NCBI GenBank assembly: GCA_017935185.1
Contig: JAGBIC010000023.1
Span: 30,449 to 94,448, forward strand
Origin: Alistipes sp.
GTDB lineage: Bacteria > Bacteroidota > Bacteroidia > Bacteroidales > Rikenellaceae
DNA length: 64,000 nt
Reading direction: 5' to 3'
The position numbers were made by a program, and so were the translations under genes. Shown piece after piece: positions 20,025 through 22,841 of this stretch. Under the pieces are notes generated by a model. The model did no database searches, was not told where the DNA came from, and saw nothing but the letters and a program-made list of their open reading frames with translations. Every line of letters starts with the position of its first letter. Positions within the stretch are counted from its first letter, which is position 1.

Positions 20025-20100
20025 AAATAGCCTGCCTAACAAGCTTTTGTTAGGCAGGCTATTTTTTATTTTTAGAACTTGTTAGACAGACTTTTATTTT
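20025..20100 (+). terminator. Strong terminator after the outer-membrane barrel gene
   Basis: A perfect 18-bp stem (left arm 20025-20042, right arm 20047-20064) around a GCTT loop is followed by T runs. A further ACTTGTTAGACAG copy at about 20078-20090, also followed by T's, could pair with the same left arm, giving an alternative second hairpin. It belongs to the CTGTCTAACAAG family. Confidence 0.88.
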
Positions 20101-20216: not shown

Positions 20217-20247
20217 TTGGATGTTAAATTTTTTTAATATATATTTG
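20217..20247 (+). promoter_or_regulatory. Sigma-ABfr promoter of the threonine operon
   Basis: TTG (20217-20219), a 20-bp spacer and TATATTTG (20240-20247) form a full consensus promoter. The expected transcript starts near 20253, about 15 nt before the leader peptide ATG and 310 nt before thrB. Confidence 0.8.
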
Positions 20248-20267
20248 CAATAGGTTAGTGATTAAAA

Positions 20268-20411
20268 ATGGTAAACAGCAATAATATAGCAGCTATGGTT
20301 ACGTCGATTACAATCGGCGTTGGTTGTTTGTATATTATTGTCGGTATTATCTCTTCTATTATTATCACGACGACCACAACAGCCACTACAATTACCCCTA
20401 TGGGGGTGTAG
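20268..20411 (+). CDS. Threonine-operon leader peptide (Thr/Ile-rich)
   Basis: A 47-codon reading frame lies between the thr promoter and thrB. Its second half is packed with the amino acids of this pathway: SSIIITTTTTATTITP, with ten Thr and ten Ile in the whole peptide. The threonine run lies at codons 34-43, ending a few codons before the TAG at 20409. This is how a ribosome-mediated attenuator reads charged tRNA-Thr and tRNA-Ile; E. coli thrL has the same logic but no sequence similarity. The frame is too short to have been called by length alone, and the assignment rests on composition and position. No coding function of the peptide itself is implied. Confidence 0.85.
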   Translation: MVNSNNIAAMVTSITIGVGCLYIIVGIISSIIITTTTTATTITPMGV

Positions 20412-20566
20412 TTATCTATTGCCGATGTGGGCATAATTCTGAAATGTCACAAATAGTTCTGTCAAGGTAACAGAAATCGGCCAAACGAAATCAGAAAATT
20501 AGAGTTCAATTTTGTTCACTTGCACGTAGTGTGCATGTGTGAATGGTATATATTAAATTGTAAGCA
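20412..20566 (+). promoter_or_regulatory. Thr-operon leader RNA between the leader peptide and thrB
   Basis: Several pairings are possible here. GCCGAT (20421-20426) can pair with ATCGGC (20476-20481). TTCTGT (20457-20462) pairs with ACAGAA (20470-20475). TTCAC/GTGAA plus TGCAC/GTGCA form a longer hairpin at 20515-20543 close to the thrB start. ACCCC/GGGGT overlaps the end of the leader frame (about 20394-20406). None is followed by a clear T run, so I cannot point to the attenuator terminator; control could act on thrB translation or through Rho. Confidence 0.5.
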
Positions 20567-21496
20567 ATGAACAAAGTAAGAGTTTTTGCGCCGGCTACCG
20601 TAGCAAATATGGGTTGTGGATTTGATGTTATGGGAATGACCCTTGATGGAGTGGGCGATGTTATATCTGTGGAAGTCTTGGATGGCGAGGGTATATCTAT
20701 TATAAACAATAGTGGCGTAGAGCTGCCCGAAGATGTTGATAGTAATGTGGTAACCCCTGCCGTGAGAGCGTTGTTGGCGGCCTATGGCGAGTGTAAGAAA
20801 GTGCTGATTACTATCGAAAAGAAAATTGCCCCCGGTAGTGGTATCGGGTCAAGTGCCGCATCGTCGGCAGCTGCAGTATATGCTTTGAATGTGGCGCTTG
20901 GGCGACCATTTTCAGATGAAAGGCTAGTGGAGTTTGCCATGGAGGGTGAAAAACTTATCAGTGGCGGAACTCCGCATGCAGACAATGTTGGCCCGTCGCT
21001 ATTGGGCGGTGTGGTGCTGTTGCGTAGCTATGAACCGCTTGATATTGTTCGTCTGCCAGTGCCTGATAATTTCTGTTGTTCGGTGGCGCATCCCGAGATT
21101 ATGGTAAGTACACGTATGGCGCGAGAGGTCTTGCCCAAGGAGATTCCCTTGCGCACGGCTGTGAAGCAGTGGGGAAATGTCGCGGGTCTTGTTGCCGGAT
21201 TGTCACTCAAGGATGTATATTTGGTTGGTCGAGCCATGTGTGATGTAGTCGTGGAGCCATATCGTAAACGATTTATACCGCAATTTGACGAGTTGCGTGA
21301 GAAAGTGTTGGCGGTAGGAGCGTTGGCGATGAATATTTCAGGTGCGGGACCATCAGTCTTTGCATTGTCGGCCGACATGAAAGTGGCTGAACGTGTAGGA
21401 GAAGTGATGCGTGAGCATTTTGCACAACTAGATGTGAAGTCTGATATATATGTGAGTAAGGTGTCGAATCAGGGCGCAAGAGTGTTGAATGACTAA
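20567..21496 (+). CDS. thrB: Homoserine kinase
   Basis: ThrB phosphorylates homoserine with ATP to give O-phosphohomoserine, the substrate of threonine synthase. The 309-residue protein is a GHMP kinase. The N-terminal VRVFAPATVANMGCGFDVMG is the homoserine kinase signature, PGSGIGSSAASSAAAVYALN is the ATP-binding motif, and GGTPHADNVGPSLLGG and MNISGAGPSVFAL are the later GHMP motifs. It is the first structural gene after the leader peptide and is followed by thrC after 11 bp. The aspartokinase/homoserine dehydrogenase gene thrA, often first in this operon in related bacteria, is not present in the window. Confidence 0.95.
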   Translation: MNKVRVFAPATVANMGCGFDVMGMTLDGVGDVISVEVLDGEGISIINNSGVELPEDVDSNVVTPAVRALLAAYGECKKVLITIEKKIAPGSGIGSSAASSAAAVYALNVALGRPFSDERLVEFAMEGEKLISGGTPHADNVGPSLLGGVVLLRSYEPLDIVRLPVPDNFCCSVAHPEIMVSTRMAREVLPKEIPLRTAVKQWGNVAGLVAGLSLKDVYLVGRAMCDVVVEPYRKRFIPQFDELREKVLAVGALAMNISGAGPSVFALSADMKVAERVGEVMREHFAQLDVKSDIYVSKVSNQGARVLND

Positions 21497-21507: not shown

Positions 21508-22794
21508 ATGAAATTTTATAGTACACGAGATAAATCGCATCTACATCGTTTGCCACTTACAGAGGCGGCCTTTGCGGGACTTGCTGCAGATGGCGGGCTA
21601 TTTATGCCTGAGCGTATTCCGCTGGTTGATATGAAGCGAGTTGAGAAGCTGGCCGAGTGTTCGTATGCCGAGATGGCGTCGTATCTGGCGCAACAACTTT
21701 TTGATGACGTGCCGGCGGATGTTGTCAAGCAAGTTGTGCATGAGGCTTATGATTTCCCAATCGTCATGAATCATTTGGGTGATAATTTCTATAATCTAGA
21801 ATTGTTTCATGGGCCTACTTTTGCATTTAAGGATTTTGGGGCTCGTTTCATGGGGCGTATGCTTAATCATTTGTGCGGTGAAGAGCCTTTGACGATACTT
21901 ACTGCCACATCGGGCGATACTGGCAGTGCCGTTGCTCATGGTTTTTATGGAGTAGAGGGTGTGCGTGTGGTGATTTTATATCCCGATGGTAAGGTTAGTC
22001 CATTACAAGAGGCGCAGATGACAACACTTGGTGGTAATATCTTTCCGCTTAAAGTACGTGGCAATTTTGATGATTGCCAGCGTATGGTTAAATCAGTATT
22101 TCGTAACCAATCTTTACGTGGACGTATTCGTCTTACATCTGCCAATTCAATAAATTTGTTGCGATGGATTCCACAATCATTTTATTACTTCTATGGTTAT
22201 TGCATTTGGTCTTATATGACTGGTAGGGATTTTCCCGAAGTGGTTGTTCCGAGTGGTAATTATGGAAATCTTACAGCAGGAATGTTGGCCCGCAGAATGG
22301 GTTTGCCGCTTAAAGGTTTTGTGGCTGCATCAAATGCAAATGATGTAGTGCCGGAATTCTTACAAACCGAACAATACCATCCGCGTGCATCGGTACATAC
22401 ATTAGCCAATGCCATGGATGTTGGTGATCCGAGTAATTTTGAACGTATGATGACATTGTGTGGAAACAATGTAAAGGCGTTGCAGACTGAAGTGCGTGGA
22501 TTTTCGTGTGATGATAAACAAATAGCGGAGTCCATGGCTGAGATATATAATAAATACGATTATGTGTCGGATCCGCATAGTGCGATTGGTTATTTAGCAT
22601 CCAAGCAATTAGATGTGGATGGGTTTTATCTTTCAACAGCACATGCTGCAAAATTTGGTGAGGTTGTCAAAAATTCACTCGGAATTCAGCCACAGCTCCC
22701 AGATGTGTTGCATGAAAGTATGTTGAAATCGCGTGGTTTTGACATTATCGAGGCCAATGAGTCTGTGTTGGAGGATTTTTTGTTGAAAATGTGA
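21508..22794 (+). CDS. thrC: Threonine synthase
   Basis: ThrC converts O-phosphohomoserine to threonine using pyridoxal phosphate. It has 428 residues and the fold of the longer bacterial/fungal-like class, with the N-terminal MKFYSTRDKSHLHRLPLTEA. The cofactor lysine is Lys108 in FAFKDFGARFMG. TATSGDTGSAVAHGFYG binds the cofactor phosphate, and VVPSGNYGNLTAGMLARRMG follows. Codon use is visibly more AT-rich than in nifJ or the ribosomal genes, but there is no other sign of transfer. It is the last gene of the operon; a terminator follows at 22805-22841. Confidence 0.95.
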   Translation: MKFYSTRDKSHLHRLPLTEAAFAGLAADGGLFMPERIPLVDMKRVEKLAECSYAEMASYLAQQLFDDVPADVVKQVVHEAYDFPIVMNHLGDNFYNLELFHGPTFAFKDFGARFMGRMLNHLCGEEPLTILTATSGDTGSAVAHGFYGVEGVRVVILYPDGKVSPLQEAQMTTLGGNIFPLKVRGNFDDCQRMVKSVFRNQSLRGRIRLTSANSINLLRWIPQSFYYFYGYCIWSYMTGRDFPEVVVPSGNYGNLTAGMLARRMGLPLKGFVAASNANDVVPEFLQTEQYHPRASVHTLANAMDVGDPSNFERMMTLCGNNVKALQTEVRGFSCDDKQIAESMAEIYNKYDYVSDPHSAIGYLASKQLDVDGFYLSTAHAAKFGEVVKNSLGIQPQLPDVLHESMLKSRGFDIIEANESVLEDFLLKM

Positions 22795-22804
22795 GTTTTT
22801 ATAT

Positions 22805-22841
22805 GTCATAGAGTCGCGAAATGAGGCTCTATGACTTTTTT
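22805..22841 (+). terminator. Intrinsic terminator of the thr operon
   Basis: A 9-bp stem GTCATAGAG/CTCTATGAC (22805-22813 with 22827-22835), with a 13-nt loop, is followed by six T. Confidence 0.82.

Follow-up and report, generated by a model that had tools for sequence, protein, structure and literature searches.

In enterobacteria, the thr genes are preceded by thrL (Thr_leader in Rfam), a short leader ORF rich in Thr and Ile codons, with Thr codons located beside a hairpin. In Bacteroidota, the Bacteroid-trp motif is found ahead of trp genes. This motif (RF01692) is given as a likely cis-regulatory RNA of Bacteroidetes in Table 1 of Weinberg et al. (2010, PMC2864571). Strong clues of leader peptides upstream of amino-acid operons have been reported for Flavobacterium psychrophilum (PMC9723704), and short, leader-peptide-like ORFs in long 5' UTRs for B. 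thetaiotaomicron (PMC7366714), but the main-text passages of these two reports do not describe a threonine leader, nor a hairpin (H1) and junction such as those presented below. In the part of the literature covered by our search, no threonine leader or RNA of this kind was found in Bacteroidota; the 2010 survey of Lopatovskaya may already list thr leaders of Bacteroidetes.

The locus described here lies in a 64,000-nt stretch (the window) of Alistipes sp. contig JAGBIC010000023.1 (GCA_017935185.1, forward-strand positions 30,449-94,448), in which a leader ORF is situated between a promoter, recognized by motif, and the biosynthetic genes thrB and thrC (Table 1). Its similarity to thrL consists in the short, Thr/Ile-rich leader ahead of thr genes and in the position of the terminal Thr codons beside a hairpin. 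Unlike thrL, it has no Rfam match and lacks a T-run terminator, a defining feature of classical attenuators, whereas it contains a covarying three-way junction and a promoter of another type. A scan with Rfam 15, with the Thr leader and Bacteroid-trp families included, gave nothing near the leader at the gathering score (two tRNAs were found elsewhere) and only two unrelated hits at E up to 10 (0.37 and 5), with no match of RF01692 to the window in either case.

Table 1. Features of the thrBC leader region in the window (positions within the 64,000-nt stretch)
Feature	Position	Strand	Basis or remarks
Promoter -33 element TTG	20217..20219	+	20 nt ahead of the -7 element; motif only
Promoter -7 element TATATTTG	20240..20247	+	motif only; leader ORF begins 20 nt downstream
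Thr/Ile-rich leader ORF, 47 codons, stop TAG at 20409-20411	20268..20411	+	ORF list, shuffles, relatives
Leader segment AUCGGC, complementary to P1 5' arm	20313..20318	+	possible competitor, weak; group permutation 0.054
Ile/Thr codon run IIITTTTTATTIT, presumed stall site	20358..20396	+	last Thr codon opens H1
H1 hairpin ACCCC-UAUG-GGGGU, end of leader ORF	20394..20407	+	folds in the window
U-rich linker	20412..20420	+	descriptive
Three-way junction P1/P2/P3	20421..20481	+	covariation, fold
P1 5' arm GCCGAU	20421..20426	+	covariation, window fold
P2 hairpin (20427-20434 with 20444-20450)	20427..20450	+	covariation, window fold
P3 hairpin, 7-nt loop CAAGGUA at 20463-20469	20457..20475	+	both-sided changes in 6/6 pairs
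P1 3' arm AUCGGC	20476..20481	+	covariation, window fold
Spacer to thrB, with hairpin 20514-20544	20482..20566	+	pairs not conserved
thrB, homoserine kinase	20567..21496	+	NCBIfam equivalogs NF002288, TIGR00191
thrC, threonine synthase	21508..22794	+	NCBIfam equivalog TIGR00260
T-run terminator 3' of thrC	22805..22841	+	stem GTCATAGAG/CTCTATGAC, then T6; from sequence

The promoter proposed ahead of the frame in an earlier note on this DNA was found to be of Bacteroidota type on the basis of its motifs (TTG from 20217 and TATATTTG at 20240-20247); in the Bacteroidota consensus, the -33 part is usually TTTG. Of 38 leaders of relatives, 31 have TAnnTTTG no more than 330 nt ahead of H1, as compared to 18% in mononucleotide shuffles. 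The operon is bounded on its upstream side by a T-run terminator detected by the terminator scan at 20025-20064, and the terminator behind thrC has a 9-bp stem, a T6 run and a 13-nt loop, which is too long for that scan. The presence of T-run terminators on both sides indicates that the genome of the window does use ordinary terminators. The homoserine dehydrogenase gene, located elsewhere in the genome, has no Thr-rich leader directly ahead of it and is preceded by another long frame, which in our own reading resembles a homoserine acetyltransferase.

The translated leader (MVNSNNIAAMVTSITIGVGCLYIIVGIISSIIITTTTTATTITPMGV, followed by the stop) contains 10 Thr residues, as had been counted before, and 11 rather than ten Ile residues. 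Five successive Thr codons do start at 20367 and form the only run of at least five Thr codons in any frame of the whole 64 kb; in 5000 dinucleotide shuffles of the region 20253-20566, no instance of 8 Thr within 10 codons or of five Thr in a row arose. The earlier note would have been contradicted by a frame that is not conserved, or is frameshifted, in close relatives. However, in the eight closest leaders (those of the window and of its relatives with ThrB identity of 81-86%) the frame is open in all eight and ends in T-P-[MVL]-G-V, with lengths that differ between 38 and 48 codons. In all 38 distinct thrB loci, which were chosen for carrying H1 and in which the frame was set by the ACC codon of H1, the frame that enters H1 is also open, with an ATG as its start. 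At each of the ten codons preceding H1, Thr is present in 17 to 34 of these loci. Its codons in the 38 loci comprise 149 ACC (38 of them being the H1 codon, which is ACC by selection), 62 ACT, 52 ACG, and 40 ACA; the use of all four points to selection on the identity of Thr and not to a DNA repeat. The stop codon is TAG in 35 of the 38 leaders versus 49 of 144 long ORFs in the loci of relatives, a comparison that is descriptive, the 38 being related. Judged by its sequence, the frame would be a translated short ORF rich in codons for the product of the pathway, and its retention ahead of thrB in relatives strongly supports a leader peptide that is conserved and linked to thr genes.

While the earlier note was right as to the leader, it missed the main feature of this locus, namely, a conserved structured RNA downstream that is composed of H1 and a three-way junction and with which the frame forms a larger cis-element. 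In the alignment across relatives, which it had suggested as a check, the Thr-rich frame is kept and covarying pairings are found in P1-P3. The end of the frame and 80 nt behind it can be aligned across divergent relatives. A covariance model of this region (R1) was built from 35 distinct sequences and fitted to 43 loci, which represent 41 distinct rows. In these rows, changes on both sides of a pair are present in all 15 pairs of the junction (P1 5/5, P2 4/4, P3 6/6), and 94.5% of cells of the R1-fitted alignment are paired. The number of double-changed cells is 139 as compared to 45 in shuffles and 9-40 in slid controls in this alignment, which is itself fitted to the structure, and 94 as compared to 35 in a plain MAFFT alignment, from which RNAalifold recovers H1 and P3 but not P1. 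An alignment of the junction only was dropped, as P1 was misaligned in it. The RNA of the window alone folds into the H1 and junction shape, with a stability no better than that of shuffles (z of -1.1; 24 of 200 shuffles as good).

The pattern of H1 is ACCCC-N3-GGGG, with the last Thr codon of the leader opening the hairpin. Its C and G arms are invariant in 41 of 41 distinct sequences, themselves chosen for these arms, and H1 has no support from covariation because it never varies. A U-rich stretch from about +7 to +17 past the G-run is, descriptively, common to the leaders of thrB and to those of thrA described below. The P3 loop has in most members the 7-nt consensus CNAGGYN (it is shorter in L006, L224, and L226), and its AGG is present in every aligned row except L088, which has AGA. 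The P2 hairpin is absent from the shortest members (L024, L025, L029, and L031). The distance to the start of P1 is 26-29 nt from the first base of H1 in all 43 aligned loci, and 8-14 nt from that of the stop codon in 39 of them; in four of the 43, the leader frame extends into P1.

A search for ThrB with a cut-off of E 1e-30 or better indicates a patchy distribution of this protein, in 12 of 61 genomes of the genus and 41 of 250 genomes of the family, the window being included in both counts. Threonine synthesis in the genus seems to be patchy or to depend on other enzymes. Among 96 scanned thrB loci (the upstream regions of 40 other family genomes and 56 loci from genome assemblies, with at least seven loci present in both sets), 46 have a sense-strand match of at least 21 bits, with at least six duplicates included in that number; the match of the window to R1 scores 63 bits. 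The full element is present in 29 of the 41 thrB-bearing family genomes, i.e., in 28 of the 40 fetched loci, with scores of at least 53 bits, and in the window. Three more carry it in part: one with several pairs broken (L095, 32 bits) and two that are aligned only in H1, the linker and a short helix (L096, 29 bits; L093, 21 bits). In 9 of the 40 fetched family loci, including L094, which is a short contig end, there is no match. Three of these nine (L091, L097, and L098) carry a Thr leader and, in a different frame, a hairpin that resembles H1. In the wider thrB search, 15 of 56 assembly loci match and 41 do not.

Whole-genome scans gave matches in 16 of 61 genomes of the genus, 11 of them at thrB and five weak and repeat-like. 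The latter (L110-L116) were considered by eye to be repeats or chance hits. In the order, 15 of 344 genomes match: that of the window, one with a strong hit (L117), five at thrA leaders, and eight with hits that were judged spurious or left without verdict. Those that looked spurious were L119, L121, L125, L126, L128, L130, and L131, and those without verdict were L118 and L127. A scan of 345 genomes from the phylum gave the window and a single weak hit. A weak match of 25.5 bits (L227) lies in a genome from outside the order (G800), and a script that looked for its hairpin gave no output. The large scans were run with stricter filters and may therefore have missed weak members. No other amino-acid operon was found downstream of any hit that was given a clear assignment.

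Five of the 56 genomes in the family of L117 (L117 and L223-L226, minus strand) also have the element, and each copy precedes an ORF of 215-216 residues. This ORF looks aspartokinase-like; a Pfam search with a single one of these proteins, that of L223, gave nothing at E 0.001, and the ORF may be a degenerate regulator or an enzyme fragment. These five members, which were outside the model building, keep the leader, H1 and the loop AGG, with P1 rebuilt as pairs of the CCAA/TTGG type. Ahead of thrA, a gene that we take to be such from its N-terminal motif and length, the leader and H1 stand alone in part of the loci. Of 344 genomes, 127 have a relative of the L123 ORF at E 1e-80, and 32 of 90 thrA upstream regions have an open frame ending in ACCCC-N2-4-GGGG; the five thrA matches of the order scan share mainly H1. 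The H1 codon of these leaders is Thr by selection, and the codon that precedes H1 is Thr in 19 of 32; Thr accounts for 133 of 448 counted codons. Their peptides end in TP, TPWGV, TPAGV, or TPRG, often with the stop within the H1 loop. This variation in tail and stop position indicates that the hairpin is kept, and not the end of the peptide. We infer that H1 was part of an ancestral thr leader, accompanied in some lineages by a terminator, and that the junction occupies roughly the place of that terminator in the family of the window.

Control by threonine through translation of the leader appears highly probable from these sequence data, and it is likely that the leader and the RNA behind it function as a cis-acting, ribosome-mediated threonine attenuator of thrBC. 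A classical attenuator whose intrinsic terminator is imperfect, or was missed by the searches in the genome of the window, is unlikely but deserves consideration. Terminator-like sites past H1 are present in 16 of 39 thrA leaders as compared to 13% in shuffles, the thrB relatives L097 and L098 have, by eye, a hairpin and a T-run after H1, and a looser scan detected in five of the eight closest leaders a hairpin 104-117 nt past the G-run (about 20516-20546 in the window). The tails of those five hairpins are mixed A/T or C/T/G (e.g., TATATATTAA) and not T-runs, and the hairpins have no common pairs in the aligned spacer fold; they could nevertheless act as weak terminators. The same looser scan of all thrB leaders found sites after H1 in 10 of 40 as compared to 14% in shuffles, which is little above chance, and the RNA behind the junction is mostly A-rich and not U-rich. 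A scan of 6 kb revealed nine terminator-like sites (5.5 expected), one of them inside the leader ORF (20301-20320) and none between the leader stop and thrB. The observation that no canonical hairpin with a T-run follows the leader thus holds, and the suspicion that the output differs from that of a classical attenuator is supported, since no T-run terminator is conserved. In one Cryptobacteroides locus (L037), another Thr leader (TTTTTTT) and, after it, a GC-rich hairpin and a T-run lie roughly 180 to 20 nt ahead of thrB and by eye look like a classical attenuator.

That the leader and junction govern the access of ribosomes to the thrB start is a reading to which we assign a low probability. 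The hairpin 20514-20544 stands before thrB, and the reliance of Bacteroidota ribosomes on unstructured starts rather than on Shine-Dalgarno pairing speaks for such translational control, but the pairs of this hairpin are not conserved, and in L070, L075, and L077 about 45 nt of A-rich RNA separate the end of the junction from thrB. When the spacers of the eight closest loci were folded as an alignment, no shared pair and no conserved hairpin before thrB emerged. The hiding of the thrB start is made less likely by a spacer that has no conserved structure in these eight and whose length, among carriers of the full element, ranges between about 45 and 210 nt. It is improbable, too, that the junction is an independent, riboswitch-like element that binds a ligand or a protein, with the leader as a second input. 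The retention of the loop AGG across two families and two target genes, beyond what a plain hairpin needs, may suggest such binding; no ligand is indicated, however, and every member seen has a Thr leader and H1 attached at a nearly constant distance, even if the model includes H1 and favours such members. Short ORFs are common, but a chance or repeat-derived frame devoid of function has practically no chance of being correct in view of the shuffles, the mixed codons and the covariation, and is already refuted by the conservation over many species.

In the ribosome-mediated attenuator that we favour, RNA transcribed from the promoter at 20217-20247 would encode the leader peptide, with Thr codons (here also Ile codons) running up to H1. 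When charged Thr-tRNA is short, the ribosome would stall on the Thr codons and cover the 5' arm of H1, leaving P1 uncovered; when threonine is plentiful, it would reach the stop codon, where its front edge would abut or cover the 5' arm of P1. The ribosome reaches about 12 nt past the A site, a size from which it follows that on the last Thr codons the H1 5' arm would be covered and P1 free, and that at the stop P1 would be touched or covered. The position of the ribosome would then set whether RNA polymerase proceeds into thrBC. We consider it somewhat more probable that the decision is made at transcription elongation than at thrB translation, because the distance from the junction to the thrB start varies. 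The off-step would operate with no conserved T-run terminator, most likely through termination close to the junction that depends on a factor or is linked to a pause.

This particular geometry, in which P1 serves as the read-out, is proposed tentatively. Among the members, no alternative partner of the freed G-run of H1 is consistently present. Segments complementary to the P1 5' arm are present in the leader of the window (Table 1) and, with 6 to 8 bp, in those of L015, L022, and L024; in the latter three they differ between groups along with the P1 5' arm, the overall signal being borderline. Pairing of the P3 loop with the leader (by duplex energy) or with H1 (by eye) found no support. Constrained folding of the window with the ribosomal A site placed at the last Thr codon gave P1 as 0.60 in both the free and the stalled state, whereas with the A site 9-12 nt further back P1 decreased from 0.60 to 0.40, and in another run from 0.52 to 0.09-0.29, which speaks against P1 being simply left to form. 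For a ribosome standing at the stop codon, P1 was lost with footprints of 13-14 nt and kept with one of 11 nt (0.92). The missing G-run partner, the borderline competitor of P1 and the constrained folding together argue against a simple two-state switch. A more speculative and, as a whole, rather doubtful proposal is that H1, the linker and P1/P2/P3 represent a new, U-tract-free class of attenuator output in Bacteroidales that ends or pauses transcription, gated by the ribosome on the Thr codons or at the leader stop, by way of a factor that reads the CNAGGYN loop.

Amino-acid attenuators are a known kind of regulator, and relative to the literature found, as far as it was covered, this leader with its RNA appears to be new. 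Leader-peptide attenuation has been suggested previously in this dominant gut phylum, for which a defined, alignable RNA is now supplied. Bacteroidota ribosomes are thought to be independent of Shine-Dalgarno pairing, and in this setting the thrBC leader offers a test case of how ribosome stalling may be turned into gene control by means other than a T-run terminator.
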